From assembly GCF_006974105.1 (NCBI RefSeq), contig NZ_CP036282.1:3286001-3350000 (forward strand): a stretch of 64,000 nt of DNA, written 5' to 3'. This stretch comes from Rhodoferax aquaticus. GTDB taxonomy: Bacteria > Pseudomonadota > Gammaproteobacteria > Burkholderiales > Burkholderiaceae_C. The notes below the pieces were generated by a model. It searched no databases. It worked only from the letters and a program-made list of their open reading frames with translations, and was not told the DNA's origin. Both the position numbers and the translations under genes were made by a program. Positions within the stretch are counted from its first letter, which is position 1. Each line of letters starts with the position of its first letter. Of this stretch, positions 15,628 to 39,552 are shown in pieces.

Positions 15628-15855
15628 ATGTCTCGTCAAAGTGTTTGGGCTACCAAAGTGACTGCCTTGCTACAAGGCGGTAACAGCCAGGCGGCATTGG
15701 CCCAGATCAAGGTGGCCCCTTCGGTGAAAGACTTGCAGCAGCTGCGCATCATGCTGAGCAACACCAAGCTGCTGGCCCAACACCCGAATGTAGACGCAGC
15801 TACCAACGACCAAATCGTAGCCCTCTCATCGCCACGCCTGCACCGCTCGCCTTGA
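15628..15855 (+). CDS. Small protein of unknown function (75 aa), first gene of the NRPS unit
   Basis: I do not recognise this family. The chosen ATG at 15628 follows TCAGGA; the same frame is open further upstream, but that part overlaps a repeat and looks non-coding. The product (MSRQSVWATKVTALLQGGNS onward) is soluble, rich in Ala, Gln, Leu and Ser, has no Cys and no membrane segment, and looks helical. Its stop is 12 bases before the NRPS start, which suggests co-transcription and a role with the synthetase, but nothing in the sequence names that role. Confidence 0.6.
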   Translation: MSRQSVWATKVTALLQGGNSQAALAQIKVAPSVKDLQQLRIMLSNTKLLAQHPNVDAATNDQIVALSSPRLHRSP

Positions 15856-15867
15856 GCCAGGTGCCCA

Positions 15868-18800
15868 GTGAACCCTAAGGCAATGCTCGGGGCACCGCCC
15901 CACAACCCCCATGTGTTGCAAGGCCCTGTGCGGGAAGACCTGCTGCGCACTGAGGTACTCGCGGACATCCTAGAAGCTACGGCACAACGCCAACCTGAGC
16001 ACATCGCACTGGAGTTTGGCGACACTCGCCTGAGTTACGCAGAACTCAACGCGCAAGCGGACCACCTCGCCTCACATATGCTGGCCCAAGGTGTCGCCGC
16101 TGGCCACATCGTGGGGCTCTGGATGCCACGTGGGGCTGCCTTGTGGGTGGCGCAAGCCGCCATTGCAAAAACCGGAGCCGCATGGCTGCCGCTAGACGCG
16201 GACACGCCGCCAGAGCGCGTGTTGGTGTGCTTGCAAGATGCCCACGCCAAAGGCCTGCTCACTGCGAACAGCCAACTACAAACACTGCCCCCCGCCCTCC
16301 ACCAGGCTCTCAGCGACAACGGCGCCATCTGGCTTGAAGACACCCTGCACGCCACGCCGTGTGCACCCCAGCGCAGGGGCCCCGTTGCACCCAGCGACCC
16401 GGCGTATGTGATCTACACCTCTGGCTCCACCGGCAAGCCCAAGGGGATAGCCATCAGCCAAGGCAGCATTTGCCACTTTTTGCGCAGCGAGAACAGCCAG
16501 CTGGGCGTGCAAGCCAACGACCGGGTCTACCAAGGGTTTTCCGCGGCCTTTGACATGTCGTTTGAAGAGGTATGGATCAGCTACCTGGTGGGAGCCACGC
16601 TGTGGATTGCGCCCAAGGCGCTCGCGACTGACCCGGAACAACTGCCCGTGGCCCTGCAGCAGCAAGGCATCACCGTATTGCACGCAGTCCCCACGCTCTT
16701 GGCACTATTCAGCCAAGACGTGCCCAGTCTGCGCATCATCAACCTCGGTGGCGAAATGTGCCCACCTAGCTTGGTAGAGCGCTGGGCCACACCCAAGCGC
16801 GCGGTGTTCAACACCTACGGCCCGACCGAGGCCACGGTGTCAGCCAGCTTGGCTCGCTTGCATTCGGGCCAGCCGGTGACCATTGGCGCGCCACTGCCCA
16901 ACTACAGCCTGCTCATCATCGCCCCTGACACAGAACAAGGCCTGCGCCTCTTGCCGCTGGGCGAGGTGGGTGAGCTATGCATCAGTGGTCCCGGCGTATC
17001 CGCAGGCTACTTGGGGCGACCTGAGTTGACGGCTGAGAAGTTTTTGCCCAATCCCTGGAGCCAAACACCCCACGACCAACGCCTCTACCGCACCGGAGAC
17101 TTGGCGCGCATTGATGCACATGGCACGGTGCAATGCTTAGGGCGCACGGACGACCAAGTCAAGATTCGTGGATTCCGGGTGGAACTGGGCGAGATTGAGG
17201 CCACGCTGACCAAGCAGCCGGGCATAGGCACAGCCGCCGTGATCTTGCGCAGCGAAGAAGGCCTGGACCAATTGATTGCCTTTGTGGTGCGCGACACCGC
17301 AGGCCTTGATGGCCCGCCCCTTGACACGCTGGCCTTGCGCAGTGCCTTGGGGGCCAGCATGCCCGCGTACATGGTGCCCAGCCATTTTGAAACCCTGGCC
17401 CAAATGCCTCGCCTGCCATCCGGCAAGATTGACCGCAACGCACTCAAGGCACGCCCCTTACAGGCGCCCAGCGCAGCGCAAGCACACGGCGACACCCCGG
17501 AAACCCCGGCAGAAGCAGCCTTGTTTGCCGCGCTGGCCAAGCTCTTTGCCGGGCAAGCCATTGTGCGCAGCGCAGACTTTTTCACTGATTTGGGTGGGCA
17601 CTCCCTGTTTGCAGCCCGCTTGGCCTCCGCCCTGCGCAGCAACCCGGCGTTTGCCCATGTGACGGTGCGCGACATTTACCAAAACCGCACCGTGGGCGAT
17701 ATAGCGAAGGCGATGTCTGCCGACGTAGCGGTCGCAGCCGTGGTGGACACGCATTGGGAGGTGCCCAGCAGCCTCAAGCGCTGGGTGTGCGCAGCGGCAC
17801 AAGCCGCAGCCATTCCGGGCTTGGTCGCGCTGCGCATGGGCCAATGGTTGGCCCCGTTTTTCACCTACCACTTTTTCACCGGGGAGCCTGACGACTCGGT
17901 GGCGCTGGCCATTGGCGCATCGGTCTTGGCGTTTCTGGCCGCAACGCTCTTGGAGTTTGCCCTCGCTATTGTTGGTAAATGGCTCATCGCAGGTCGCTTG
18001 CGGGCGGGACGCTACCCCTTGTGGGGCTGGACGTTTTACCGCTGGTGGCTGGCCGACCGCTTGGTGGAAGCCGCCCCCGCGTATTTGCTCAGCGGCTCCA
18101 GCTTGTATGCCTGGTGGCTGCGTGCTTTGGGTGCGCGCGTGGGGCGCGATGCGGTCATTGGCTCCATCACGCTGCGTGCCCCAGACTTGCTAAACCTAGG
18201 CGATGGCGTGAGCGTGGGCAACGCGGTGAACTTAGAGAACGCCCGGGTGGAACACGGCTACTTGGTGCTGGGCCCTATCACCTTGGGCAAAGACGCAAGC
18301 GTAGGTTCTTATACCGTGCTGGAGGGCAATACCAGCCTGGGATACCTGGGCCACTTAGAAGGACAGTCTGCCTTACGAGACGGCGAACATGTGCCCGCGC
18401 AACGCGTGTGGTCGGGCTCTCCGGCGCGCGACGTGGGAGCTTTCGACACGGCAGCCCAAGCCACACGCCCAGCCACAGGCATGCTGTGGCACACCTTTGA
18501 AGCAGCGTACTTTGCGGCAGGTGCCCTGCTGATTGCCACCTTGTTTTTTCTGCCGGTCTTTCCTAGCTTTATCCTGATTGACTGGATCGACAACAGCGAC
18601 CGTTTCCCTTGGCTGGCCAGTGAGGACACCACTTGGGACTTACTCAAGTACTTCGTGCTGGCATTTCCGGCAGCGGGCACGCTCATTGTGCTCACAGCGC
18701 TGCTATCAGCTGCCATACGCTGGACCGCCCTACCCCGCATGCAGCCCGGCACCTGGCCAGTGCACAGCTGGGTGTACTGCGCCCGCTGGCTGGTCAACCA

Positions 18801-19923
18801 GATTCAAGAGTCCAGCCTGCATGTGTTGCACGGGGTCTATGCCACCGTGTTCGCGCCCGCGTGGTACCGGCTCTTGGGTGCCAAAGTGGGGCGTGATGCG
18901 GAGATTTCTTCTGCGCTGGGCCTGGTGCCCGACATGCTCACCTTGGGTGACGAAACCTTTATCGCCGACGCGGTGATGCTGGGTGATGAGCATATTGATG
19001 GCGGCTGGATGACCATGCGACCAACCGTGGTCTCCAAACGTAGTTTCATCGGCAACGGCGCCTATGTACCCGATGGCACCACCGTGCCTGAGAATGTGCT
19101 GATTGGCGTGCACTCCAGCGTGCCCGCAAGTACCCGCATGCGCGATGGCGACACCTGGCTGGGCTCGCCGCCAATCCATCTTCCAGCGCGTGAACAAACC
19201 TCGGGCTTCCCGGAAACCCTGACCTACAAGCCCTCCATCTACCGGCGCATCGCGCGCGGCCTGATTGAGGCGTTTCGCATCGTGGCGCCGCATGCTTTTG
19301 TCATCTCGGTGGGCTACACCATCGTGCTCAAAGTGATGCCGTTGGCAGGTGAAGAGCGCTGGGGCGATGTGGCCAGCTACCTCACGGTAGCAGGCCTACT
19401 CTACGGCGTGGGCACCTTTGTGTTTGTGGTGCTGCTCAAGTGGCTGCTACTGGGCCGCTACCGCAAAAGCAGCGCACCGATGTGGACGCGCTTTGTGTGG
19501 CTCTCAGAAGCCGTTACCAATATGTTTGAAGGCCTCGCCGTACCTAACTTTTTGAGCTACCTGCGCGGCACGCCTTGGCTGCCTGTCGCCTTTAACATTT
19601 TGGGCGCACGCATTGGCAAAGGGGTGTACTTGGACACCACCGACATCACCGAGTTTGACTGCGCCCACATTGGCGACTACAGCGAGCTCAATGCCCTGTG
19701 CTGCCCGCAAACCCATTTGTTTGAAGACCGTGTGATGAAAATCGATACCGTGGTCATTGGCCGCAAGGTCAACCTCGGCCCGCGTGCCTCCGTCCTCTAT
19801 GGCGCCGTAGTGGGTGACAACGCCATGCTAGGCCCCCTCACCTTGGCCATGAAGGGCGAGCATATCCCTGCGGGTTCCAGTTGGGCAGGTTGCCCGGCAG
19901 CGCCTCGGCGTGTGGCAGCGTAA
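15868..19923 (+). CDS. Pls/PosA-type membrane non-ribosomal peptide synthetase
   Basis: Single-module synthetase of 1351 residues. The adenylation domain (about 25-525) has YTSGSTGKPKG at 183-193, NTYGPTEATV, the YRTGD motif and the A10 lysine K520 in PSGKIDR. A carrier domain follows (about 545-615) with phosphopantetheine serine S579 in DLGGHSLF. There is no condensation or thioesterase domain. The rest alternates hydrophobic helices (about 677-708, 870-953, 1135-1197) with three left-handed beta-helix (hexapeptide) domains (about 753-855, 1003-1105, 1244-1345). This is the layout of epsilon-poly-lysine synthetase (about 1319 residues) and PosA-like enzymes, in which the three tandem domains join monomers. 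GTG at 15868 is chosen; ATG at 15883 is an alternative. The product is unknown. Confidence 0.9.
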   Translation: MNPKAMLGAPPHNPHVLQGPVREDLLRTEVLADILEATAQRQPEHIALEFGDTRLSYAELNAQADHLASHMLAQGVAAGHIVGLWMPRGAALWVAQAAIAKTGAAWLPLDADTPPERVLVCLQDAHAKGLLTANSQLQTLPPALHQALSDNGAIWLEDTLHATPCAPQRRGPVAPSDPAYVIYTSGSTGKPKGIAISQGSICHFLRSENSQLGVQANDRVYQGFSAAFDMSFEEVWISYLVGATLWIAPKALATDPEQLPVALQQQGITVLHAVPTLLALFSQDVPSLRIINLGGEMCPPSLVERWATPKRAVFNTYGPTEATVSASLARLHSGQPVTIGAPLPNYSLLIIAPDTEQGLRLLPLGEVGELCISGPGVSAGYLGRPELTAEKFLPNPWSQTPHDQRLYRTGDLARIDAHGTVQCLGRTDDQVKIRGFRVELGEIEATLTKQPGIGTAAVILRSEEGLDQLIAFVVRDTAGLDGPPLDTLALRSALGASMPAYMVPSHFETLAQMPRLPSGKIDRNALKARPLQAPSAAQAHGDTPETPAEAALFAALAKLFAGQAIVRSADFFTDLGGHSLFAARLASALRSNPAFAHVTVRDIYQNRTVGDIAKAMSADVAVAAVVDTHWEVPSSLKRWVCAAAQAAAIPGLVALRMGQWLAPFFTYHFFTGEPDDSVALAIGASVLAFLAATLLEFALAIVGKWLIAGRLRAGRYPLWGWTFYRWWLADRLVEAAPAYLLSGSSLYAWWLRALGARVGRDAVIGSITLRAPDLLNLGDGVSVGNAVNLENARVEHGYLVLGPITLGKDASVGSYTVLEGNTSLGYLGHLEGQSALRDGEHVPAQRVWSGSPARDVGAFDTAAQATRPATGMLWHTFEAAYFAAGALLIATLFFLPVFPSFILIDWIDNSDRFPWLASEDTTWDLLKYFVLAFPAAGTLIVLTALLSAAIRWTALPRMQPGTWPVHSWVYCARWLVNQIQESSLHVLHGVYATVFAPAWYRLLGAKVGRDAEISSALGLVPDMLTLGDETFIADAVMLGDEHIDGGWMTMRPTVVSKRSFIGNGAYVPDGTTVPENVLIGVHSSVPASTRMRDGDTWLGSPPIHLPAREQTSGFPETLTYKPSIYRRIARGLIEAFRIVAPHAFVISVGYTIVLKVMPLAGEERWGDVASYLTVAGLLYGVGTFVFVVLLKWLLLGRYRKSSAPMWTRFVWLSEAVTNMFEGLAVPNFLSYLRGTPWLPVAFNILGARIGKGVYLDTTDITEFDCAHIGDYSELNALCCPQTHLFEDRVMKIDTVVIGRKVNLGPRASVLYGAVVGDNAMLGPLTLAMKGEHIPAGSSWAGCPAAPRRVAA

Positions 19924-19946
19924 GGAGCATGGCCTTGACCGGAGGC

Positions 19947-19982
19947 AGCCCCATGGCCAGCCCCATGGCAAGCCCGATGGCG
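19947..19982 (+). repeat. Three tandem 12-base units at the PPTase start
   Basis: AGCCCCATGGCC, AGCCCCATGGCA and AGCCCGATGGCG in a row, with a degenerate fourth unit after them. Each carries an in-frame ATG (19953, 19965, 19977), giving Met-Ala-Ser-Pro repeats. Unit gain or loss would not shift the frame but would change the number of start codons and the spacing to GGAGG at 19941-19945. Confidence 0.7.
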
Positions 19983-20636
19983 AGGGCATGGCCCATCGAG
20001 TCCGACCGGGCGGTGGCGGACCTGCTCAGTGCAGGGCACACCGTTGTTTTTGTCCACACGCCGGATACCGAGGACAGAACCCTGGCCCGGCACGCAGTGC
20101 GCACTGCCTTGCGCGACGTACTGGCGCGCTATTTCGATTGCAGCGGTGATGGCATCGCCTTGCAGCAAGTGCCCGGCTACGGAGTGCGCGTATTGCCAGG
20201 CGCAAGCTTTCCCGTGCACAAGCTTCCAACTGGTAGGCCATTGGCATTTACTTCGATCAGCCACGCGCCGGGCTTAAGCGCAGTCGCCATTGACGTGCAA
20301 GGTGCGGTGGGCTTGGACGTGCTGCGTAACGACACCAGGTTGAACGATGTAGAAGAAATGGCCCACCTTGCCAATGACTATTTAGGCCCCCATGCGGCCC
20401 AGGCATTACAAGCAATCGCTCCCGCAGAACGCCTAGCCGCCTTCTTGCAAGCGTGGGTGGCGCATGAGGCCAAGCTCAAGTGCTTGGGGGTAGGCTTGGT
20501 GGAGTGGTCGCCAAGGCTAGACCGGCAGTTACAACACTGCAGCACGCGCCACATCGCGTTGCCCGCCCCGTTCTTGGGTGCACTGTCAGGTGTGCACCGC
20601 TTTGACAGCGGCAAGTTGTCGCGCAGCCATCACTAG
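19953..20636 (+). CDS. 4'-phosphopantetheinyl transferase superfamily protein (Sfp-type)
   Basis: Likely activates the carrier domain of the adjacent synthetase by moving phosphopantetheine from CoA to S579. The superfamily signature is present: GLDVLR (metal-binding Asp) and, about 55 residues on, WVAHEAKLKCLG, where the usual W-x-x-K-E-A-x-x-K reads H-E, keeping the Glu and the final Lys. Upstream HAVRTALRDVLARYF and SISHAPGLSAVAI fit the fold. ATG at 19953 is preferred because GGAGG lies seven bases before it; the ATG at 19929 has its AAGGAG only one base away. It begins 30 bases after the NRPS stop and ends in a convergent 4-base overlap with the next gene. Confidence 0.8.
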   Translation: MASPMASPMARAWPIESDRAVADLLSAGHTVVFVHTPDTEDRTLARHAVRTALRDVLARYFDCSGDGIALQQVPGYGVRVLPGASFPVHKLPTGRPLAFTSISHAPGLSAVAIDVQGAVGLDVLRNDTRLNDVEEMAHLANDYLGPHAAQALQAIAPAERLAAFLQAWVAHEAKLKCLGVGLVEWSPRLDRQLQHCSTRHIALPAPFLGALSGVHRFDSGKLSRSHH

Positions 20637-25325: not shown

Positions 25326-26008
25326 TTGTTAGCCTTTGCTTTGAGTGTTTGCAACATTGCGTGTGCGGCGGCCTGTTCGCCGGCACGGCGGGACCCGCCT
25401 ATGCCGCGCTCTGCCAAGCGCAACTCTGGAATTTCGCATTCCACATCAAAGCTTTGCTTATGCGCAGCTCCAATGGTGCCTACCACGGTATAGGTCGGCA
25501 ACTTCATTTTGCGACCCTGAAGCCACTCTTGCAACTCCGTTTTCGCGTCTTTCCCTATGGCCTGCATTTGGGGGTTGATTTCGACGGCCTTGTACAGGCG
25601 GTGCACCAGTGCTTGTGCGGGCGGAAACCCTGCGTCAAGATACACAGCACCAATGATGGCCTCTAGCGCGTCGGCCAATATGGAAGGACGCTTTTGCCCC
25701 CCAGACTGGACTTCGCCCTCGCCGAGCTTGATGACTTCAGATAGACCTAGCCCGACGGCAAGCTGATGCAAGGTGTCTTGCTTGACCAAATTGGCACGGA
25801 CGCGCGACAGGTCCCCCTCGGGCAGGGAAGACAAGCGGGCATAAAGGAGATCGGACACCGCCAAGCTCAACACCGAGTCGCCAAGAAACTCAAGACGCTC
25901 GTAGTGGTCAAGGGAAAAGCTGCGATGGGTAAGTGCTCGGTGGAGCAGAGAGATGTCGGAGAACTGATGCTGCAGGCGGCGCTGCAGCTCCACAATTTTT
26001 GCTGTCAC
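25322..26008 (-). CDS. rnc: Ribonuclease III
   Basis: Double-strand-specific RNase processing rRNA precursors and mRNAs. The catalytic signature [17 protein letters not shown] and the second metal-site [15 protein letters not shown] are intact, with a C-terminal double-stranded RNA-binding domain ([11 protein letters not shown] to QAAAHAML). The start is GTG at 26008, one base after the stop of the upstream gene, giving 228 residues, which is the family length; the frame's earlier ATG would overlap that gene by 74 bases. Confidence 0.95.
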
Positions 26009-26009
26009 G

Positions 26010-26360
26010 TTATTTGGAACGACCTTCGTATTTGAGTGTGAGGTAAGCAGGCCCCGCCAGATGGATCTCGCGGGAGTAGGCAAAGCTCACCACCACTTTG
26101 TCACCTTCTTTGGTGACTTCTATGTCCTTGGCACTCACGCTCTTGATGTTATCGATCTGCGCGGCCTTGTCGAATATGACGCGGACTTCTGCCGGCGTTT
26201 GGCCTTCTTTTGCCTTGTTGACGGCCTTTTCAACGGCCAAGTACTCCACGTAAGTCGGAAACACTTGCGCGGACACCACACCAATCATGGCCAAGGTAGC
26301 CCCCCAAAACACAAGGCCCAAGAAAGAAACACCGCGTTGCGAATGACGTGAAGAAACCAT
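26010..26360 (-). CDS. DUF4845 family membrane-anchored protein
   Basis: A small protein with an N-terminal signal-anchor helix (GVSFLGLVFWGATLAMIGVV, then SAQVFPTYVEY), followed by a soluble domain of about 75 residues. This is the DUF4845 family, regularly encoded between lepB and rnc in Betaproteobacteria and Gammaproteobacteria. Function is unknown; the pilin-like N-terminus suggests a membrane or export role. ATG at 26360 (116 residues) is preferred to the earlier ATG at 26396. Confidence 0.82.
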   Translation of the reverse strand: MVSSRHSQRGVSFLGLVFWGATLAMIGVVSAQVFPTYVEYLAVEKAVNKAKEGQTPAEVRVIFDKAAQIDNIKSVSAKDIEVTKEGDKVVVSFAYSREIHLAGPAYLTLKYEGRSK

Positions 26361-26401
26361 GGTATGCGAACTCCAATCCTTGGCGGAACGTGCCAAGCCA
26401 G

Positions 26402-27367
26402 TTAATCAAAAGAACCGATGCGCTTGATATTGCCCAGGTTCATCCAAACGAAGAAAGCTTTGCCCACGATGTTCTTCTCAGGCACAAAGCCCCAGTAGCG
26501 AGAATCCAGTGAATTGTCACGGTTGTCGCCCATCATGAAATAGTGGCCTTCAGGCACCGTGCACGTTACGCCCTCTACGGTGTAACTGCAGCCATTGCGC
26601 CCTTCAAAATTATCTGCGCCCGCCACGAAGGCTGGACGGTCATCATCGTTAAGAAAACGGTGTTTTTTGTCACCCAATGTTTCTTCATACTGTTTGAAGT
26701 AACGCATGGTATCGGTGTCCAAAAACTCTGGCACCCCATTGGTTTCTACAGGATTGCCATTGATGGTCAGGCGCTTATTCAAATAGGCCACCTTGTCGCC
26801 AGGCAAGCCAACCACCCGCTTGATGTAGTCCAAGCTGGGCTTTGGAGGATAGCGAAACACCATCACATCACCACGCTTGGGGGGCGTGCCTTCCGTAATT
26901 TTGGTATTGAGGACCGGCAATCGCAAGCCGTAGGTGAATTTATTCACCAAGATCAAATCACCCACCAGCAGGGTAGGAATCATGGACCCCGACGGAATCT
27001 TGAACGGCTCAAACAAGAACGAGCGCAGGAAAAAGACCGCAATAATCACGGGGAACAGGCCTGCTGTCCAGTCTAGCCACCAAGGCTGCATCAACAACTT
27101 CTGGCGGGCTTGTGCAATATCGCCGTCCACTTGTTTGATGCCCAACTTGTCAAGCTCTGCGCGGCGATGTAGATCGTGGGCTTCTAGAGCGGCGGCGGCG
27201 GCCTGGCGTTGGGGAAGAAAGTAAAAGCGCTCTGCCAACCAGTAGATCCCTGTGACCACGGTTGCCAAAAACAAGAGCAGGGCAAAGTTACCTTCTACGG
27301 CCCCAAAATACCAAGAGCCTGCGTACAGCACGAATGCGCCCAGAACCACTGAAGTTAAGGCTTGCAT
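26402..27367 (-). CDS. lepB: Signal peptidase I
   Basis: Membrane serine protease that cleaves signal peptides of exported proteins. Two N-terminal hydrophobic stretches (about 5-50) and one more (about 100-117) precede the periplasmic catalytic domain. The Ser/Lys dyad is S128 in IPSGSMIPTL and K183 in YIKRVVGLPGD; box E is GDNRDNSLDSRYWGFVP. Length 321 is normal. Its ATG overlaps the lepA stop by one base (TAATG), the usual lepA-lepB pairing. Confidence 0.97.
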   Translation of the reverse strand: MQALTSVVLGAFVLYAGSWYFGAVEGNFALLLFLATVVTGIYWLAERFYFLPQRQAAAAALEAHDLHRRAELDKLGIKQVDGDIAQARQKLLMQPWWLDWTAGLFPVIIAVFFLRSFLFEPFKIPSGSMIPTLLVGDLILVNKFTYGLRLPVLNTKITEGTPPKRGDVMVFRYPPKPSLDYIKRVVGLPGDKVAYLNKRLTINGNPVETNGVPEFLDTDTMRYFKQYEETLGDKKHRFLNDDDRPAFVAGADNFEGRNGCSYTVEGVTCTVPEGHYFMMGDNRDNSLDSRYWGFVPEKNIVGKAFFVWMNLGNIKRIGSFD

Positions 27368-29178
27368 TAATCTTCCACCTGCAAAATGGCCAAAAATGCC
27401 TCTTGTGGCACCTCCACCGAACCGATTTGTTTCATGCGCTTTTTACCTGCTTTTTGTTTTTCAAGGAGTTTGCGTTTGCGCGAGATATCGCCGCCGTAGC
27501 ATTTGGCAAGCACGTTCTTGCGCAGGGCTTTAATTGTCTCACGGGCAATGATGTTGGCCCCAATGGCCGCTTGGATCGCCACGTCGTACATCTGACGCGA
27601 AATAATTTCTCGCATTTTCCCGACCACCGCGCGGCCCCGGTACTGGCTCTGGCTACGGTGCAGCATGATGGACAGAGCGTCCACCTTTTCTGAGTTCAAC
27701 AAAATATCGACCTTGACCACGTCGGCAGCACGGTACTCTTTGAACTCATAGTCCATAGAAGCGTAGCCTCGGCTGACACTCTTTAACTTGTCAAAGAAGT
27801 CCAACACAATCTCCGCCAGCGGCATTTCATAGGTCAACACGACTTGTCGCCCCTTGTAGACCATGCTGATCTGGACACCGCGTTTCTGGTTTGCCAAAGT
27901 CATGACAACCCCGACATATTCTTGCGGCATGTACAGGTGCACCGTGACAATGGGTTCGCGTATTTCGGCGGTCTTGCTCACCTCAGGCATCTTGGAGGGG
28001 TTCTCCACCATGATGACTTCGCCGTCTGCCTTCATCACTTCATAAACCACGCTGGGCGCTGTCGTGATCAGGTCTTGGTCAAACTCGCGCTCCAGCCGCT
28101 CTTGCACAATTTCCATGTGCAGCAGCCCCAAAAATCCGCAGCGGAATCCGAAGCCCAAAGCCTGTGAGACTTCGGGTTCGTAATGCAATGACGCATCGTT
28201 GAGCTTGAGTTTTTCAAGCGCGTCGCGCAAGGAGTCGTACTCGCTCGCCTCGGTGGGATACAAACCAGCAAAGACCTGGGGTTGAATCTCCTTAAAGCCA
28301 GGCAAAGCCTCTGTCGCTGTCGCAGCCGCACCACCAGTGCCGGGCTTGATGAGCGTCACTGTGTCGCCGACCTTGGCGGCCTGCAATTCTTTGATACCAG
28401 CGATGATGTACCCCACCTCACCCGCCTCCAAGGAGGCACGGGGTTGGTTGGCTGGGGTAAAGACACCTAGGTTATCGGCGTTATAGGTCGCACCTGACGC
28501 CATCATTTTGATACGCTCACCTTTGGCAAGGCGGCCATCGACCACACGCACCAACATCACGACACCCACATAAGGATCGAACCAGCTGTCAATAATCATG
28601 GCCCGAAGCGCAGCAGCGGGGTTGCCCTTGGGATGCGGTATCTTGGCAACGATGGCTTCCAAGATATCGTCAATACCTAGACCGGTTTTGGCAGAACAGA
28701 CGATGGCATCGGTCGCATCGATGCCAATGACGTCTTCAATTTCACTTCTGGCATTGTCGGGATCTGCATTGGGCAGGTCGATCTTGTTCAGTACAGGGAG
28801 TACTTCCACATTCAGGTCCAAGGCCGTATAGCAGTTAGCAACTGTTTGCGCTTCCACGCCTTGGCTGGCATCGACGACCAGCAAAGCACCTTCGCAAGCA
28901 GACAGGGAGCGGCTGACTTCATATGAAAAGTCAACGTGACCGGGCGTATCAATAAGGTTCAGGTTGTAGACCTGCCCATTTTTGGCCTTGTACTGCAGTG
29001 CTGCGGTTTGCGCCTTGATGGTAATACCGCGCTCTTTCTCAATGTCCATGGAGTCCAGAACTTGGGCTTCCATATCTCTTGCCTCGAGGCCACCGCAACG
29101 CTGAATCAGGCGATCAGCCAGAGTAGATTTGCCATGGTCAATGTGGGCGATGATCGAAAAATTTCTGATGTGATTCAT
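27367..29178 (-). CDS. lepA: Elongation factor 4 (LepA)
   Basis: Ribosome-dependent GTPase that acts on stalled or back-translocating ribosomes. The GTPase domain has [26 protein letters not shown] and [11 protein letters not shown]; the EF-G-like domains and the specific C-terminal domain ([24 protein letters not shown]) follow. ATG 29178 ([16 protein letters not shown]) is used rather than the TTG one codon earlier, giving 603 residues. A terminator hairpin sits 43 bases upstream of the start. Confidence 0.98.
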
Positions 29179-29221
29179 CAAGGAACTACTTCAAGGTGAT
29201 GGGTAAAAAGAGACAGGCAAG

Positions 29222-29252
29222 AAAAAAGGGCGCGTCACAATGAGACGCGCCC
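29222..29252 (-). terminator. Intrinsic terminator between mucD and lepA
   Basis: On the minus strand: a perfect 9-bp stem GGGCGCGTC / GACGCGCCC, a 7-base loop and six T. It would end transcripts coming from the rpoE-mucD operon. Because it lies only 43 bases before the lepA start, it could also regulate lepA if a promoter lies further upstream (a TACAAT -10-like hexamer is at 29294-29299 on the minus strand). Confidence 0.88.
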
Positions 29253-29661
29253 TAAACCAACAATCTTTGGCAACTGCGAAGGTTGGGTCTTCATTGTAGG
29301 TAAAAAGTTTTGTGAGCACAGTCCAAAAACTGGGGATTCGGTGGAGTTGCGACACAACAACACCAATTTTATGCACAACTTATTCACAAGTTAATAGGTT
29401 TGCCCTGCATAACATGTGAGGCACCTGTGGATCCGCTGTGGGCAAAAACACAATCCCGCATTGTGAACTAATTGCACCAGCGAATACAAGCAATGCAAGA
29501 GACAGAGGCTCTATTCTAACCAAAAGCAAAACAGGGCCTTAGGGACGACGGTGTGCACCACATCATGCCCGTGTTGCAGGAAACACACCATTTTCGCCAA
29601 CTCCCCCCGCCATGTCCCGGCCAATACCCAACTGCAGCGAGGGGTTACCTGACAGCGGATG
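29253..29661. promoter_or_regulatory. 409-base gene-free gap with a DnaA-box pair
   Basis: No convincing gene was found here. The gap contains two exact matches to the DnaA-box consensus TTATNCACA in direct tandem, TTATGCACA at 29369-29377 and TTATTCACA at 29380-29388, then an inverted near-match TGTGGATCC at 29426-29434 and a weaker TGTGGGCAA at about 29437. The function is open: DnaA titration or DnaA control of a neighbouring gene. dnaA and dnaN are not here, so an origin is not supported. Confidence 0.5.
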
Positions 29662-31128
29662 CTACTTGGATGGCCGAATCACGGCGTATTGGGTCCAATC
29701 ACCGCGCCGGTACAGAACCGTTATAGGTTTACTCTTGTCTTGTTTGGCCAGTAGAGTGTCGAACTCTTTCGCACTGGCAATCTCGGATGTACCAACGGAG
29801 AGAATGACGTCTCCTTCCTGTAAGCCGGCCCGAGCTGCTGAGTCAACAGCAGCATCAACGCGAACACCTGCTTTAACCTTTAATTCTTTCCTTTGTGCAT
29901 CCGTCAAGTCAGACACCGTCAGACCGAAGACTTGGCTCGCAGTAGAGGACTTTTTCTTGTCTTCTCCAGACCCGCCCTTGGATGCAACTTTTTCTGGCTC
30001 AATTTCAGCAACCGTGATGATGAAGTCTTTGTAAGCACCGCGGCGGAACACTGTCACCGTGCTCTTACTACCCGGCTTGGTACCTCCCACCAAACGGGGC
30101 AGATCGCTCGACTTCTCAATCAGCTTGCCGTCAAACTTGGTAATGATGTCACCCGCTTCTACGCCTGCCTTCTCCGCTGGCGCACCGGTTTCCACACCCC
30201 GTACCAGAGCTCCTATGGGTTTACCTAGGCCTAATGACTCCGCTACTTCTTTGCTTACCTGCTCAATCTGCACGCCAATGCGCCCACGTGAGACGCGCCC
30301 TGATGCGCGCAGTTGATCGCTAACCCGCACGGCTTCGTCCATCGGAATCGAGAAAGAAATGCCCATAAACCCACCAGAGCGAGAATAGATCTGGCTGTTG
30401 ATTCCCACGACTTCACCCCGCATATTGATCAGGGGGCCTCCAGAGTTGCCCGGGTTGATGGCTACGTCGGTTTGTATAAAGGGCAAGAAATCACCGGTGT
30501 CTCGCTGCTTGGCACTGACAATGCCCGCCGTTACGGTATTTTCCAGTCCAAAGGGGGAACCAATCGCCATCACCCACTCGCCCACCTTCAGGCGATTGAC
30601 ATCACCAATCTTCACGGCAGGCAGACCTGTAGCCTCAATTTTGACCACCGCCACATCGCTACGTTTGTCAGCACCAATCACCTTGGCTTTGAATTCGCGC
30701 TTGTCGGTCAACGTAACCAAGAGTTCATCCGCACCGTCAATCACATGCGCATTGGTCATGATGAGCCCATCAGAGGACAAGATAAACCCGCTACCTACGC
30801 CGCGTGGCTGCTCTTCTTCTTGCGGTTGAGGTCGATTTTGCCGTGGCGCTTGCCTGGGTACGTTGGGAATAGGTATACCAAAGCGCTTGAAGAACTCAAG
30901 CATTTCCTCGTCCCCGGGACTGCCCTGTTGTGCGCGCGGGTTTACTTTCTCAAGCGTCCGAATATTGACCACAGACGGTCCGACCTGCTCTACGAGATCA
31001 GTGAAGTCTGGGAGTGCCCTGGCCTGGGCTTGGGCTGGGCTAACCCCTAGCAATGGCACCAAGGACCCCAGTCCCAAGGCAAACGCCAAGGTGAGGGCTT
31101 TGAGTGAAGTCGCACGGTTTTGAAACAT
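29662..31128 (-). CDS. mucD: DegP/MucD-type periplasmic serine protease
   Basis: HtrA-family protease and chaperone of the envelope. A signal peptide (about 1-36, ending AQAQA) is followed by the trypsin-like domain with triad H128 (TNAHVIDG), D158 (KRSDVAVV) and S229 (NPGNSGGP), then two PDZ domains (about 270-360 and 390-485). The start is ATG 31128, eight bases after AGGAG; an upstream in-frame ATG touches the AGGAG and is unlikely. It is last in the rpoE-rseA-rseB-mucD order, so sigma-E control is expected. Confidence 0.95.
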   Translation of the reverse strand: MFQNRATSLKALTLAFALGLGSLVPLLGVSPAQAQARALPDFTDLVEQVGPSVVNIRTLEKVNPRAQQGSPGDEEMLEFFKRFGIPIPNVPRQAPRQNRPQPQEEEQPRGVGSGFILSSDGLIMTNAHVIDGADELLVTLTDKREFKAKVIGADKRSDVAVVKIEATGLPAVKIGDVNRLKVGEWVMAIGSPFGLENTVTAGIVSAKQRDTGDFLPFIQTDVAINPGNSGGPLINMRGEVVGINSQIYSRSGGFMGISFSIPMDEAVRVSDQLRASGRVSRGRIGVQIEQVSKEVAESLGLGKPIGALVRGVETGAPAEKAGVEAGDIITKFDGKLIEKSSDLPRLVGGTKPGSKSTVTVFRRGAYKDFIITVAEIEPEKVASKGGSGEDKKKSSTASQVFGLTVSDLTDAQRKELKVKAGVRVDAAVDSAARAGLQEGDVILSVGTSEIASAKEFDTLLAKQDKSKPITVLYRRGDWTQYAVIRPSK

Positions 31129-31195
31129 TATTTCCATCTCCTGTTACTGATCGTTCAGTGAAATACAAGTCGCCAAGTGTTGCGTTTAAGTCGTT

Positions 31196-32206
31196 CTATT
31201 GCTTACGTTCGAGCGCCAAGGCAAACGCCTTGACCGTGCTGGCGGGCACTTCTCCGACCGCCGTTATCCACCATTCGTTCACACGGCGCGCGTAAATGTG
31301 AGTCGCCCCCCCAAGATCGGTTGGACCTTGTCGAACATGCCTTCGCACATCAAATGCCTCAACAAAAAGTGAGACGGTCGCGAGTCCATCAGAGAATGTC
31401 CATTGCATGGAACCATCGTGGCGCGAATAGCTCGCCTGAGACGCCGCATTGGGCCACTGAAAACAGCCCGTGGGCTTGAAACCTGCGACAGTTTGCTTCA
31501 ACGCCCAACCCTCTTCGTCCGGGTTCGCCTTGTGTAGCTCTGGGCGCTCGACCCGATAGCCCTCGGTAGCCCGCATCAACTGGCCCAAGTTGTGCATGCT
31601 CACTGGTGCATTCAGGCTAAGCTCAGAAAATGCACTTTGCTCGATGACTTGTCCCTCTGTGGTTACCGTTTGCAACTGAACAATGAGCCCTGTTCTTTTT
31701 TCACTCCAGACACGATAGCCAAAACGCAGCGCGTCTTTCGGCGTAAGACCAACCACGTCAGCCTGAAGTCCAGCAACCCTCTCATTGGGATAAGACTTCA
31801 GCTCATAGAAGCTATCAATGTCGGTGTCCTTTGATTTCAGCAAACCGGGAAACAAGCCAAGGGAATCACGCTTCTCCAGCACGGCAAGTTTGATCGTCGG
31901 ATAGAAAGTGATGACCTGGTCATCACGCCGAATGGTGGAGCGTGGAGCACCAGTTAGTGACTCAACGCGCTCCATTTGCTGCTCGCCGTCACAAACGTGC
32001 CATATCTTTGCACTCGCCATCTGACCGCCCGCCCGTACAACGTAGGTGCCGGTGTAAGCCAATTGGCGAGACGCTTGGTACCCTTTTTGCAACCATGTTT
32101 TGATAGGTGTATTGGTTCCGACTGTGGGCTCGGCCTGTGTGTTAACGCTTATGAAAAGGGAAAATGCAAGCAAAATCACTTTGCAAGTCGGTCCAAAACC
32201 TATCAC
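31196..32206 (-). CDS. rseB: RseB/MucB, periplasmic regulator of sigma E
   Basis: Binds the periplasmic part of RseA and shields it from proteolysis until it senses mislocalised lipoproteins or lipids. A signal peptide ending about residue 25 (NTQAEP) is followed by the two MucB/RseB domains (LAYTGTYVVRAGGQM early; GFKPTGCFQWP and a C-terminal domain with WWITAVGEVP). Its ATG overlaps the rseA stop by four bases. Length 336 is normal for the family. Confidence 0.92.
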   Translation of the reverse strand: MIGFGPTCKVILLAFSLFISVNTQAEPTVGTNTPIKTWLQKGYQASRQLAYTGTYVVRAGGQMASAKIWHVCDGEQQMERVESLTGAPRSTIRRDDQVITFYPTIKLAVLEKRDSLGLFPGLLKSKDTDIDSFYELKSYPNERVAGLQADVVGLTPKDALRFGYRVWSEKRTGLIVQLQTVTTEGQVIEQSAFSELSLNAPVSMHNLGQLMRATEGYRVERPELHKANPDEEGWALKQTVAGFKPTGCFQWPNAASQASYSRHDGSMQWTFSDGLATVSLFVEAFDVRRHVRQGPTDLGGATHIYARRVNEWWITAVGEVPASTVKAFALALERKQ

Positions 32207-32838
32207 TTGGCAGGTCTTTCAAATGTGGCATTGCGCAAAAATCCTGAAGGCATTTGCAAAGCCGAGTGACCGCCTTGCAACTGATGCGCAGCAAGCAACG
32301 CGTCTAGCGCAGGATCTCTGATCATTACTGCTGGTCCAGTCGAGTCCACAACAAACTCTACAGGCGCATTAGTTGCTTCGATGATGACTGCCTTAGGTTG
32401 CGAAACCTCAGCAACCTGGACCAACGCCGTCTGCTGTAGCAACCCTAAACCTAGCGCACCAGATAGAACCGAAGCAATGATTGCAACCATTGGCTTCCAT
32501 CTACTCTTGAAATTACTGACAGCGACGGCAGGCGGAGCATCCGCCCGAACAGAAACCTCCCTCAAAGCGGTATCAAGGGGCGCAGCGATTGGAACTACGG
32601 CTTCTCGAGCCAGTCGTCGCTCAAAGTTTGCCAAGAATGACTGTGCAGCGATGGGATCTTCGGGTTCGCCACGCATGACTTGCCCTAGTACTTGGTAGCT
32701 TATCCACGTTGTTTCCAAGTCTGGAGAGCTTCCCAGTTCTTCAGCTGCCCCCAATCCACTCAGACCTTCTACTTGGCCGTCAAACAGGGTCGACAAATAC
32801 TCGTCTGAATGTGATGCAGAAGATGTCATATCAGTCAT
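32203..32838 (-). CDS. rseA: Anti-sigma E factor RseA/MucA
   Basis: Membrane anti-sigma factor holding RpoE inactive. The cytoplasmic N-terminal domain (about 10-80) includes EYLSTLFDGQVEG and WISYQVLGQVMRGE, typical RseA segments; one membrane helix lies at about 115-134 (MVAIIASVLSGALGLGLL), with a periplasmic tail of about 75 residues. It begins two bases after the rpoE stop and overlaps rseB by four bases. An alternative start is the ATG three codons downstream. Confidence 0.92.
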   Translation of the reverse strand: MTDMTSSASHSDEYLSTLFDGQVEGLSGLGAAEELGSSPDLETTWISYQVLGQVMRGEPEDPIAAQSFLANFERRLAREAVVPIAAPLDTALREVSVRADAPPAVAVSNFKSRWKPMVAIIASVLSGALGLGLLQQTALVQVAEVSQPKAVIIEATNAPVEFVVDSTGPAVMIRDPALDALLAAHQLQGGHSALQMPSGFLRNATFERPAK

Positions 32839-32840
32839 GT

Positions 32841-33461
32841 CTACCAGCGTTTGCCTGTGCGTTTTTCAAGCAGAGGTTTGATTTTTTGGGAAACAGCCTC
32901 GCGCGCTCGAAAGATGCGCGAGCGAACGGTCCCAATGGGGCACTCCATAAGCTCAGCAATTTCCTCATAGCTCAAACCATCGATTTCACGCAGTGTGATT
33001 GCTTGTTTAAGATCCGCTGGCAAAGCCTCTAAGGCAGCATTGACAACCGTCGCAATTTCCTTGGCTGCCAGTGCAGACTCAGGTGTTTCGTCACTGGTTA
33101 GTTCAGGCTTTCTCCAAGAAGTTTCATCCTCATCGTCAGAATCGCCAAAATTATCGGTGACCGTGGGATTGCGCTTTAGGTCAAGCAAGGATTTTTTAGC
33201 GGTATTGATCGCAATCCTATAGAGCCAAGTGTAGAACTGCGCGTCGCCACGGAACTGGTGCAATGCGCGATAGGCTCTTATGAAGGTTTCTTGGGCGATG
33301 TCTTCTACTAGATCAACATCGCGCACCATGCGACCAATGAGACGTTGGATGCGCCGTTGGTACTTGAGCACCAATAGTCCGTATGCGCGCTGGTCCCCAG
33401 CCAAAGTCCGTTGAACCAAAGTCCAATCAGTGTCGTCGTTGGGCGCGGGACTATTGCTCAA
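32841..33461 (-). CDS. rpoE: RNA polymerase sigma factor RpoE (AlgU)
   Basis: Extracytoplasmic-function sigma factor for envelope stress. Region 2 (LVLKYQRRIQRLIGRMVRD, EDIAQETFIRAYRAL) and region 4 (LSYEEIAELMECPIGTVRSR) are intact and joined by an acidic linker (about 95-130). Length 206 is slightly longer than the enteric protein owing to that linker. ATG at 33461 overlaps the upstream gene by four bases. No sigma-E-type promoter was found immediately upstream. Confidence 0.97.
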   Translation of the reverse strand: MSNSPAPNDDTDWTLVQRTLAGDQRAYGLLVLKYQRRIQRLIGRMVRDVDLVEDIAQETFIRAYRALHQFRGDAQFYTWLYRIAINTAKKSLLDLKRNPTVTDNFGDSDDEDETSWRKPELTSDETPESALAAKEIATVVNAALEALPADLKQAITLREIDGLSYEEIAELMECPIGTVRSRIFRAREAVSQKIKPLLEKRTGKRW

Positions 33462-33928
33462 AAAAACTCCTCTATGGGTCGGTTTTTCGTCAATGCGGTT
33501 TGCCTGCTACGTCCAACTGCGTAAACTGCGCGTCTGAATGCCAACCATTGGAGCGCCAAAGAGCTCCGCTCCAACCAAAGCCATACTGAGTCTTGCTCTT
33601 CATTGACGACATGAACGAGCATGAGAGTCTGAATGTCCAGCCGCACTGCGATATGGCATGGCGAAGCAGTGGGAAACCGAGTCCAAGCCCAGTTCATGCC
33701 ATCCCAGCTCAGACGTCCAGTGTGCGCGTTTCTTGAAGTCCTCGAGCCAATCAAAACCAACACCAGAAACAGATAGGCGAGTGCCAAGTAGCCCAATGTA
33801 GCCCAAGCCATACCGCTAAACAAAAGGGAAAGGTTCAACGCGAACGCTAGTGACAACGCCCCTACCAACAATCTATTAGGGATTGTCGACGGTCCAATGA
33901 CGCAACTGACGGCAGGAGCCTTATGCAT
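33458..33928 (-). CDS. YgfX-like membrane protein upstream of rpoE
   Basis: A 156-residue protein with two N-terminal hydrophobic helices (about 18-62) and a Trp-rich cytosolic part ending VWLWLERSSLALQWLAFRRAVY. The layout and this final motif resemble the YgfX (CptA) family, which in enterobacteria partners the SdhE/CptB protein; no sdhE is seen nearby. Its stop overlaps rpoE by four bases, so it is translationally coupled to the sigma factor. The family call is by pattern only. Confidence 0.55.
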   Translation of the reverse strand: MHKAPAVSCVIGPSTIPNRLLVGALSLAFALNLSLLFSGMAWATLGYLALAYLFLVLVLIGSRTSRNAHTGRLSWDGMNWAWTRFPTASPCHIAVRLDIQTLMLVHVVNEEQDSVWLWLERSSLALQWLAFRRAVYAVGRSRQTALTKNRPIEEFF

Positions 33929-33962
33929 TACCTAGGCTGCGCCGCTCTGTTGTGGCACTTAC

Positions 33963-35207
33963 TCAAATGCGCTTGAACACCAAAGTACCGTTGGTGCCGC
34001 CGAAGCCGAAGTTGTTCTTGACAGCCACATCGATCTTCATGTCGCGCGCAACATTGGCGCAGTAGTCAAGGTCGCACTCCGGGTCTTGATTAAAAATGTT
34101 GATGGTTGGTGGGCTTTTCTGATGATGAACGGCGAGCACAGTAAACACTGACTCAATACCACCAGCCCCGCCCAGCAAATGACCAGTCATGGACTTTGTG
34201 GAATTCACCACAACCTTCTTTACATGATCGCCTAAGGCGGCCTTGATCGCTTTGGTTTCATTCACATCGCCCAAAGGCGTCGATGTCCCATGGGCGTTCA
34301 AGTAATCAACCTTATCAACATTGACCTGGGCATTGCGCAGCGCACTCAACATCGCGCGGCGTGGGCCATCCATGTTGGGAGCTGTCATGTGACCGGCATC
34401 GGCGCTCATGCCAAAACCAGCAAGTTCTGCATAAATCTTGGCACCACGGGCTTTGGCATGCTCGTACTCTTCCAACACCAAAATCCCCCCGCCCTCCCCC
34501 AACACAAAGCCATCGCGATCGCGGTCCCAAGGGCGTGACGCCGTCGTTGGGTCGTCGTTTCGGGTACTCAAAGCACGCATTGCAGCAAAACCACCAATGC
34601 CAAGCGGGGAAACTGTACTTTCAGAGCCTCCCGCAATCATGACATCTGCATCTCCGTACTCAATCATTCGTCCGGCTTCACCGATGCAATGAAGACCCGT
34701 GGTGCAGGCTGTGACGATTGCAATATTGGGCCCTTTGAAGCCATAGCGCATCGAAACATGCCCAGCGGTCATATTGATGATCGTGCCGGGTACAAAAAAG
34801 GGAGAAATCCGACGTGGCCCACGATTCACATACTCACTATGCATGCTCTCTATCATCGGCAAGCCACCAATTCCAGAACCAATGACGCATCCGATACGGG
34901 TAGCCTCATCTTCACTGAGCGCATCCCCGGTCAGCAAGCCAGAGTCTTGAATCGCCTGTGCAGCAGCAGCAATGCCGTAATGGATGAAGGCATCCATTGA
35001 GCGCGATTCTTTGGGAGGAATATAGGCGTCTAGGTTGAAGTTGCGCACCTCGCCTGCGATCTTGCAGGAAAACGCAGATGCGTCAAACTTCGATATCAAA
35101 TCAATTCCCGACTTGCCTGCCAATAGATTGGCCCAAGCCTCTTCAACTGTATTTCCAACTGGGCTTACACAACCCAGACCAGTAACCACAACGCGACGAC
35201 GAGACAT
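33963..35207 (-). CDS. fabF: Beta-ketoacyl-ACP synthase II
   Basis: Condensing enzyme elongating fatty acids. The Cys-His-His triad is visible: C168 in [10 protein letters not shown], one His in [11 protein letters not shown] and one in [13 protein letters not shown]. At 414 residues it has normal length. Its neighbours acpP upstream and the rpoE operon downstream are typical for Burkholderiales. A UUCG-type hairpin lies between acpP and this gene. Confidence 0.98.
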
Positions 35208-35309
35208 AGAAGTATGTATTCAGCAGTTTGCCAATGAAGCGCCGTTAGTACGGCAGGATCATGGCCCGGCAGACGGTTGCAATAGCCCCCGTATCTGCCC
35301 AAGCCGTTT

Positions 35310-35323
35310 GACACCGAAGTGTC
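35310..35323 (-). other. Small hairpin between acpP and fabF
   Basis: On the minus strand a 5-bp stem GACAC/GTGTC closes a TTCG tetraloop 13-26 bases after the acpP stop. There is no T-tract. It could protect the abundant acpP message from 3' decay or act as a processing point; that is inference. Confidence 0.35.
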
Positions 35324-35335
35324 GTGAAAACCAAA

Positions 35336-35584
<249 letters not shown>

Positions 35585-35675
35585 CTAAGGGTAGTAAATT
35601 AATCCGTGATTTTACCCGGGCTTAGAGCACTGCCCCTAACCGGACGACCGAACGGACAAATCGGCCTATTTTTGA

Positions 35676-36422
35676 CTACATGTACATGCCACCGTTGACA
35701 TGTAGCTCTTGGCCTGTAATGTAGTTGGCCGCAGGAGACGCAAGATAAGCCACCGCATGGGCAATATCAGCCGGCTTGCCCAATCGACCTAAAGGAATTT
35801 GGCTCAAAAGTGCTTTTTGCTGATCTTCCTGCAAACCAGCCGTCATATCAGTCTCAATAAACCCCGGCGCAACGCAGTTAACAGTAATGCCACGAGAGCC
35901 CAGCTCCCGCGCCAGTGCGCGGGTCATACCTGCAACCCCTGCTTTGGCAGCCGCATAATTTGCTTGTCCGGGGTTGCCGGATGCACCAACAACCGAGGTG
36001 ATGCTCACGATACGTCCGTAGCGTTGTTTCATCATGGAGCGCATCACGGCACGACTCATGCGAAAGACACCTTTTAGGTTGGTGTCTAGAACAGCATCCC
36101 AGTCATCATCCTTCATGCGCATTGCCAAAGTATCCCGCGTGATGCCTGCGTTGTTAACTAGCACATGCACCCCTCCAAGCTCTTTGACTACGGCATCCAC
36201 AAACGCATCCGAAGCAGCACCATCTGTCACATTCAAAGTGCGACCGTCACATCCTGCAAAAGCAGCCAATGCTTCACGGATGCTCTTAGCTCCGTTGTCC
36301 GTCGTCGCAGTACCGATGACCTTAAAGCCGTTCTTCGCCAGTTCTAGTGCAATAGCAGCACCGATGCCACGGGATGCACCAGTGACCAAGGCAATCTGAC
36401 CTTCGGTTTTGACTTCACTCAT
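35676..36422 (-). CDS. fabG: 3-oxoacyl-ACP reductase
   Basis: NADPH-dependent reductase of the fatty-acid cycle, short-chain dehydrogenase fold. The dinucleotide-binding TGASRGIG, NNAGITRD and the catalytic triad S143, Y156, K160 (YAAAK) are in place. Length 248 is normal. It overlaps fabD by four bases (ATGA). Confidence 0.98.
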   Translation of the reverse strand: MSEVKTEGQIALVTGASRGIGAAIALELAKNGFKVIGTATTDNGAKSIREALAAFAGCDGRTLNVTDGAASDAFVDAVVKELGGVHVLVNNAGITRDTLAMRMKDDDWDAVLDTNLKGVFRMSRAVMRSMMKQRYGRIVSITSVVGASGNPGQANYAAAKAGVAGMTRALARELGSRGITVNCVAPGFIETDMTAGLQEDQQKALLSQIPLGRLGKPADIAHAVAYLASPAANYITGQELHVNGGMYM

Positions 36423-37369
36423 TCCAAGTTCCCTTTTACTTCTTGCAAACCCGCTGGATCAGCCAAAGAGTACCCGCTTAACTCAGGGTCAATCCGTTTG
36501 GCCAGCCCGGCCAACACCTTACCAGGACCGCATTCCACAAGTGTCGAAACACCCAAAGCCTTGATGGCTTGCACGGTCTCAACCCAACGCACGGGACCAA
36601 ATGCCTGTCGGTACAACGCATCCTTAATCTCTGCAACACTTACCGCCACGGCAACGTCGATATTGTTGATCAGTGCGACTTGCGGCATAGCCATCTCCAT
36701 AGCCTCCAAACGCGCACGCAGCGTGATGGCTGCGGGTTGCATGAGGCTTGAGTGAAATGGCGCTGAGACAGGCAAAAGCAAAGCGCGCTTTGCCCCAGCC
36801 GCCTTCAGTACTTCGCAGGCTTTGTCGACCGCCGCTTTGGTTCCGGCAATAACTGTCTGGGAAGGGTCATTAAAGTTAACCGCCTCGACTACCTCACCCG
36901 ACTCGCCCCCAAAAGCCGCCGTAACTTCCGCACAACCGGCCGCAACTCTCATGGCATCCATGCCCAACACGGCGGCCATCGCGCCAGTACCCACCGGAAC
37001 AGCATCTTGCATTGCCTGTGCCCGCAAGCGAACCAAAGGAGCAGCTTGGGCCAAGCTTAGGGCGCCAGCCGCCACCAATGCGGAGTACTCCCCCAATGAA
37101 TGCCCAGCCAACACAGCGGGCATGACACCGACCTCAGCCATCCATACCCGATAAGCAGCCACTCCAGCGACTAGCATCACCGGCTGGGTATTGGTCGTCA
37201 GGGCAAGGTCTTCTTTGGGCCCATCTTGTATCAGTTGTGTCAAATTTTCTTGCAGAGCGTCTGATGCTTCTTCGAGAACTAGCTTCACCGCTTGGTGGTC
37301 ACCCCAAGCATTCAGCATCCCAACTGATTGCGAACCTTGACCAGGAAAAACAAATGCAAAAGTCTTCAT
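36419..37369 (-). CDS. fabD: Malonyl-CoA-ACP transacylase
   Basis: Moves malonyl groups from CoA to AcpP. The nucleophile is S91 in AGHSLGEYSALVAAG; the partner His lies in VSAPFHSSLM. The N-terminal FVFPGQGSQ is typical. Length 316 is normal. It is followed by fabG with a 4-base overlap, and a dispersed repeat separates it from fabH. Confidence 0.98.
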   Translation of the reverse strand: MKTFAFVFPGQGSQSVGMLNAWGDHQAVKLVLEEASDALQENLTQLIQDGPKEDLALTTNTQPVMLVAGVAAYRVWMAEVGVMPAVLAGHSLGEYSALVAAGALSLAQAAPLVRLRAQAMQDAVPVGTGAMAAVLGMDAMRVAAGCAEVTAAFGGESGEVVEAVNFNDPSQTVIAGTKAAVDKACEVLKAAGAKRALLLPVSAPFHSSLMQPAAITLRARLEAMEMAMPQVALINNIDVAVAVSVAEIKDALYRQAFGPVRWVETVQAIKALGVSTLVECGPGKVLAGLAKRIDPELSGYSLADPAGLQEVKGNLE

Positions 37370-37388
37370 AAAACCTATAGATAAATGA

Positions 37389-38396: not shown

Positions 38397-38418
38397 CAAT
38401 ATGGTGTTTGACCGTGCA

Positions 38419-39534: not shown

Positions 39535-39552
39535 TCAGTTAATCAACGTGAG

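Follow-up and report, generated by a model that had tools for sequence, protein, structure and literature searches.

A two-gene PosA-type locus of Rhodoferax aquaticus, predicted to make delta-poly-L-ornithine, and a candidate active site in one of the three C-terminal repeats of its synthetase

The closest described system is PosA, the delta-poly-L-ornithine synthetase of Acinetobacter baumannii, and the products given for the Pls/PosA family in the available part of the PosA study are polymers (PMC10522769). As described there, PosA (i) releases free delta-poly-L-ornithine of 7-12 units in vitro, (ii) prefers L-ornithine over L-lysine more than 160-fold in kcat/KM and forms no lysine polymer, and (iii) contains a methionine, Met218, that was proposed to limit substrate length. 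In the literature that we searched, from which subscription journals are mostly missing, this Acinetobacter enzyme is the one characterised PosA-type enzyme found, and neither a biochemical study of a PosA from the Burkholderiales nor a report of a phosphopantetheinyl transferase (PPTase) linked to these synthetases was found. Here, we describe a locus from Rhodoferax aquaticus (Burkholderiales) in a window of 64,000 nucleotides, which is the whole stretch of DNA analysed (contig NZ_CP036282.1, positions 3,286,001 to 3,350,000). The locus comprises a Pls/PosA-family synthetase of 1351 amino acids (aa) with a GTG start (15868..19923; all window features given below lie on the + strand) and, directly behind it, the gene of an Sfp-type PPTase (19929..20636), whose start is either ATG 19929 or ATG 19953. 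The features of this pair of genes are far beyond chance, and we consider it probable that they form a two-gene PosA-type module making delta-poly-L-ornithine, with chain growth at a proposed site in C3, the third of three repeats in the C-terminal half (C-half) of the synthetase.

The synthetase matches TIGR02353, the NCBI model for Pls/PosA proteins, with 837.3 bits (cut-off 423.1) over profile positions 2-695 of 695, and NCBI already names such proteins as Pls/PosA family. At E <= 0.001, a Pfam scan found four families only, including the adenylation (A) domain, the carrier, and the hexapeptide repeats, and it found no condensation or thioesterase domain. The A domain (residues 27-528; 15946..17451) matches PF00501 and PF13193, and the A-domain core motifs can be read in its sequence. 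It is followed by the peptidyl carrier protein (PCP) domain (residues 552-615; 17521..17712), which matches PF00550 and whose phosphopantetheine serine, S579, is kept in 126/126 aligned proteins. Hydropathy places six membrane segments in three pairs, which flank the beta-helix repeat regions C1 (17998..18477), C2 (18748..19227), and C3 (19453..19920). The first pair comprises residues 640-658 and 684-702 (17785..17973), the second residues 886-904 and 929-947 (18523..18708), and the third residues 1138-1156 and 1172-1190 (19279..19437). The first segment, 640-658, is weak, as it scores 1.43 in the same scan in which the soluble A-carrier part reaches up to 1.52, and the AlphaFold2 model has a helix at this place. 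This model, which covers residues 636-1351 (pLDDT 93, pTM 0.91), shows helices at all three pairs, alternating with three beta-helix regions, and its leading Foldseek matches are beta-helix acetyltransferases; the VIA-align rows cover mainly C1 and thus say little on C2 and C3. Pfam, hydropathy, and the model therefore confirm the 1351-residue A-PCP protein with alternating membrane helices and three hexapeptide-repeat domains that an initial annotation, made from the sequence, had described, and together with TIGR02353 they agree with its claim of a Pls/PosA architecture free of condensation and thioesterase domains. The fold comparison that it had proposed for the C-half also favours tandem domains, based on the model, Foldseek, and the homology of C1 and C2 to C3, with no solved Pls/PosA C-terminal half among the structure matches listed to serve as reference.

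The residues that line the substrate pocket of the A domain, read against the PosA alignment, are D229, M230, E233, H272, N292, G294, T316, V324, S325, and K520. This code, DMEHNGTVSK, is identical at 10/10 positions to the ten-residue code published for PosA (PMC10522769). Among the 122 synthetases of our census (obtained from 124 stretches, with L071 and L194 excluded as they hold no open frame >1000 aa), 93 carry DMEHNGTVSK, four have S in place of T (DMEHNGSVSK), and the remaining 25 have nine different codes between them, of which one departs from the PosA code at a single position. A FastTree tree of 126 tips places the window synthetase within a clade of 98 tips that includes the A. baumannii tip (support 0.995), and all 98 tips of this clade carry DMEHNGTVSK or DMEHNGSVSK; the sequences nearest to the window synthetase come from Rhodoferax and the Comamonadaceae. 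The A. baumannii homologue (record CP040041) has the code DMEHNGTVSK and is 52.8% identical to the window synthetase over 1345 columns, whereas the code is DAESIGTVVK and the identity 33% over 1351 columns for a Streptomyces protein that bears the annotation Pls. A sequence search of the PDB gave the A-core of PosA from A. baumannii (8g95/8g96) as the best match, with 511 bits, and the A domain of Pls (7wew) well behind, with 282 bits. The pocket code and the tree thus point to L-ornithine, not lysine, as the predicted substrate.

For the C-half, we compared the three repeats with each other and across the family. By hhalign, C1 (7e-30) and C2 (3e-20) each show homology to C3, and among the 53 C-halves aligned, identity to that of the window goes down to 22%. 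Polar residues that are near-invariant, being kept in at least 96% of 126 proteins, number one in C1, five in C2, and eleven in C3, where conservation marks Q1281, H1283, E1286, K1291, Y1311, K1329, and E1331. His1283 is present in 125/126 proteins, the exception being L218, which is cut by a contig end (this sequence was left out of alignments A1-A4, of 53 rows for A1 and 44 rows for A2-A4, and kept in the 126-row alignment). Each of the other C-half histidines of the window synthetase occurs in at most 98/126 proteins. The position of H1283 is occupied by A792 in C1 (Ala in 109/126) and by E1041 in C2 (Glu in 108/126). Moreover, C3 aligns with Escherichia coli LacA (hhalign, 6.9e-10), with H1283 lying within the loop that holds LacA H115, which we take to be the catalytic histidine. 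According to the available part of PMC3046976, a study of a related acetyltransferase, the catalytic histidine resides in a protruding loop in all crystallised members of the beta-helix family, and the active site of the enzyme studied lies between adjacent subunits. The PosA study modelled the three repeats as one pseudo-symmetric domain, and its available part names no catalytic residue in them (PMC10522769). Because H1283 is the only C-half histidine conserved throughout, and because it is missing from C1 and C2 despite their homology to C3, the conservation pattern suggests a single active site, located in C3 at H1283.

The third open reading frame (ORF) of the locus is an Sfp-type PPTase, as initially annotated: it matches PF01648 with 29.5 bits (cut-off 25), and, in the numbering of the 235-aa protein, D130 and K184 are each conserved in 71/72 aligned PPTases and E180 in 72/72, while a comparison with PHROGs gave nothing useful. 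The residue before the catalytic Glu is variable across the 72 PPTases (H, R, W, Q, F, and L among the forms printed; motif W...EA.LKC), a position that is Lys in Sfp. Its distance from the synthetase had been given as 29 bases; the gap is either 5 bases (ATG 19929) or 29 bases (ATG 19953) depending on the start chosen, whereas the other spacing given, of 12 bases in front of the synthetase, and the common strand stand. To count linkage, duplicates were merged (L069 with L146, and L072 with L155), which left 120 loci. The PPTase gene is directly downstream in 69 of the 95 distinct loci with a PosA-type code and follows behind a phospholipase gene in four more (73/95). A profile search found no downstream PPTase in the loci with other codes, although this 0/25 is possibly too low, as the profile was built near these synthetases, mostly of the PosA type, and may miss others. 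The profile likewise had no match in the stretches around an Azospirillum and two Streptomyces synthetases. In one of the 25 loci with other codes (L209:12317-13069; pocket code DLEDIGSVVK), the profile did find a PPTase gene, which immediately precedes the synthetase gene in the same orientation. In the genome of the window, the PF01648 matches are AcpS and this PPTase only, and this synthetase holds the only A domain above the TIGR01733 cut-off; with one non-AcpS match and one such A domain, the two proteins are probably dedicated to each other.

From the directly supported features of the locus, namely its domains, pocket identity, clade, linkage, and conservation, we infer the substrate, the product and its linkage chemistry, the action of the PPTase on the carrier, the part played by H1283, and an exit of the product to the envelope or medium, as follows. 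The PPTase would place phosphopantetheine on the synthetase's own carrier at S579, and the A domain would adenylate L-ornithine and load it as a thioester onto the carrier arm. The membrane-embedded C-half, a putative single-chain pseudo-trimer of three beta-helix acyltransferase-like repeats, would then take the ornithyl group off the carrier and join it to the delta-amine of the growing ornithine chain, cycle by cycle. A single catalytic site in C3 would serve this transfer, with H1283 in the loop of the beta-helix acetyltransferase base and with the carrier arm in place of acetyl-CoA. The outcome would be a short cationic isopeptide, likely delta-poly-L-ornithine as predicted from pocket and tree, which may be released to the envelope or the medium.

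Several observations weigh against parts of this scheme. Concerning the substrate, the PosA A-core is barely ahead by score in the PDB search, in which linear gramicidin synthase A reached 503 bits over two stretches, and it is thus the pocket and the tree that argue for ornithine; moreover, a code predicts the amino acid that is activated, and neither its polymerisation nor the amine used. Concerning the active site, hhalign offsets H1283 and LacA H115 by four residues, so that the loop matches, not the exact residue. Furthermore, C1 matches LacA about as well (3.2e-9) as C3 does, and it is therefore the conservation of residues, and not the likeness of fold, that makes the case for C3. In this alignment, H1283 is retained by one Streptomyces Pls that departs at E1286, K1291, Y1311, and K1329, by which these four side chains are not strictly required. 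Concerning the PPTase, 21/95 PosA-code loci have none downstream (one further locus reaches a contig end), and the profile had no match around the A. baumannii copy, for which reasons the linkage is common, not universal.

The neighbourhoods of the synthetases were surveyed by clustering the ORFs of at least 80 aa, chosen greedily by length, around 94 loci (L190-L219 lie outside the clustering). Besides the synthetase and the PPTase, 16 clusters reach three genus labels, none of them in more than 17/94 loci. Those that we recognised by eye were two-component proteins, a LysR regulator, and a phospholipase group, as well as, at median distances >4 kb, an ABC-type ATPase (6 loci) and a permease (8 loci); some of the other clusters resemble shadow ORFs. 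No widely shared transporter or hydrolase cluster was found by this recognition beside the PosA-type loci, and the absence of one at the window locus thus says little on the destination of the product. With no cluster in more than 17/94 loci, a widely shared transporter, hydrolase, or regulator was rejected as a partner of the module. A scan for regulatory sites gave nothing useful, with 0 promoter-like sites where 1.5 were expected and with 8 terminator-like sites, for which the expectation was 6.2.

The same survey bears on a different reading of the locus, in which the synthetase would load ornithine and hand a single residue, or a few, to an acceptor bound in the membrane, such as a lipid or an envelope glycan, with no free homopolymer formed. 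Hydropathy and the model do embed the C-half in the membrane, its fold resembles acyltransferases of sugars and small molecules, and no exporter-like cluster accompanies these loci widely, all of which would suit an acceptor. However, no acceptor pathway stands out among the neighbours recognised by eye, given that the other gene clusters each occur in at most 17/94 loci, and PosA, which has the same pocket and is the closest characterised relative, forms free 7-12-mers in a family whose stated products are polymers (PMC10522769). We regard transfer to an acceptor as unlikely. The initial annotation had left the choice between a homopolymer and a capped membrane acceptor; a homopolymer is the most likely product, and capping of an acceptor found no support here.

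In four distinct genomes (L070, L072 = L155, L147, and L153), the synthetase and PPTase genes have a phospholipase A1 gene between them. PF02253 matches over the full length in three of them (L147:14127-15371; L155:14081-15472, with the same synthetase as L072; and L153:10266-11723), whereas the fourth (L070:6147-7574) has a phmmer match only. Measured to the start of its open frame, the gene begins 4 to 29 bases after the synthetase in three genomes and 264 bases after it in L070. These loci make up five tips of a 12-tip branch (support 0.823), and the remaining seven tips have no such gene there. The window genome has its phospholipase elsewhere, so that this linkage does not apply directly to the window. 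According to the available part of PMC5874903, PldA of E. coli controls the homeostasis of the outer membrane, and the outer leaflet is disturbed by antimicrobial peptides; among the literature matches listed, none links a phospholipase to Pls/PosA synthetases. The candidate roles of the gene are to release the polycation or to protect the cell from it, and either is possible. A combined proposal, in which Pls/PosA enzymes share a single C3 site at H1283 and the outer-membrane phospholipase A1 of this branch either releases the polycation or protects the outer membrane, is tentative, and we would lean slightly against it in full. If true, the C-half of the family would be one beta-helix acyltransferase, not three condensation domains, and the linkage would give a genetic hint of how a Gram-negative cell handles a polycation product. 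In genome G015, L070 and L071 form two tandem modules of synthetase, phospholipase, and PPTase, with the second synthetase appearing as two pieces.

The locus had initially been grouped as a three-gene unit with a 75-aa ORF (15628..15855; ORF scan) that ends 12 bases before the synthetase, and this grouping did not hold. If the three genes were one functional unit, the 75-aa protein would be a conserved small partner of the synthetase, and indeed the spacing and common strand make co-transcription of the two likely and the arrangement recurs in five related loci, the window included (5/94 with the ORF in front of the synthetase). However, homologues of the ORF (E <= 0.01) occur in 58/200 genomes of the family, whereas a full synthetase was found in 13/200, a number that is possibly low, as three synthetase candidates were scored per genome. 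Both are present in five of these genomes (G000, G125, G039, G071, and G146) and adjacent in two, namely the window's own genome and G125. Conversely, the ORF was not found in 89/94 synthetase loci, one of which has <400 bases upstream. At one further site (L006), the order is AcpS, NagZ, the 75-aa ORF, a SUI1 gene, and QSreg, with the ORF between nagZ and the SUI1 gene and no synthetase; this is apparently an empty site, seen in one genome. The ORF, which has no match in Pfam, NCBIfam, or PHROGs, is a real conserved gene that looks like a bystander already at the site. As it is often kept without a synthetase and L006 looks empty, the site that already held it probably either gained the synthetase and PPTase genes by insertion or lost them. 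A role of the 75-aa protein as a synthetase partner was thus rejected as very unlikely, and the unit is one of two genes, the synthetase and the PPTase, not three.

Least credible of all is a Streptomyces Pls-type epsilon-poly-L-lysine synthetase, which the common architecture and the 33% identity to the Streptomyces protein would allow and which was rejected because its second pocket position holds the Met of PosA and not the Ala of Pls, because the tree places the window synthetase with PosA, and because PosA itself discriminates strongly against lysine and forms no polymer from it (PMC10522769). Of the likeness to the lysine enzyme that the initial annotation had drawn, the architecture therefore survives, and lysine as the substrate does not, given the pocket code and the phylogeny.

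The Pls/PosA family is patchily distributed, with TIGR02353 matches at E <= 1e-60 in 9/369 genomes sampled from the class and in 25/299 from the phylum. Of 7994 candidates scored in a protein search, 3101 were listed at E <= 1e-20. In the relatives survey, for which the best 80 of 176 were kept, PosA-type systems were found across the Burkholderiales and in two Pseudomonas genomes; the partial TIGR02353 matches L164 and L189 belong outside the set of wide stretches surveyed. Elsewhere in the window, the G+C content of positions 26001-46000 is about 0.51-0.56, compared with about 0.56-0.63 in the first 26 kb, and the AT skew of positions 46001-48000 is 0.226, which is unusually high for a 2-kb block.

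The window synthetase joins a known family and gives a testable hint on its mechanism. PosA-type systems extend over the Burkholderiales, often with a linked PPTase, which makes co-expression simple; H1283 is a single residue bearing on how the family would polymerise without condensation domains; and the phospholipase linkage is a lead on how Gram-negative cells may release the product or protect themselves. With PosA, the window synthetase has in common its ten pocket residues and its architecture, and the 52.8%-identical A. baumannii homologue falls in the same clade. In contrast, posA is described as a single-gene operon (available part of PMC10522769), whereas the window synthetase is directly followed by a PPTase gene. 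Around the A. baumannii copy, 0/11 annotated features are a PPTase (in a gene table that is incomplete), in line with the lack of a profile match there. With the Streptomyces Pls, as described in the available part of PMC8117764, it shares the A and carrier (T) domains, six membrane segments, three acetyltransferase-related domains, and the lack of condensation and thioesterase domains. It differs from that enzyme in its sequence (about 33% identity), in its code (DAESIGTVVK in Pls), and in its surroundings, as an M1 metallopeptidase gene follows pls. The window PPTase resembles other Sfp-type enzymes in its PF01648 match and its conserved D130, E180, and K184, whereas the residue before the catalytic Glu varies in its group. 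Finally, the repeats of the window synthetase have the fold of the left-handed beta-helix acetyltransferases (galactoside and maltose O-acetyltransferases, serine acetyltransferase, and type B chloramphenicol acetyltransferase), and in C3 the loop that corresponds to theirs holds a histidine. The beta-helix acetyltransferases are homotrimers and use acetyl-CoA as the donor. For some of them, this description is borne out in the available part of PMC3046976. In the window synthetase, by comparison, the three repeats are fused in one membrane chain, the conserved histidine is found in one repeat only, and the donor would be carrier-bound.

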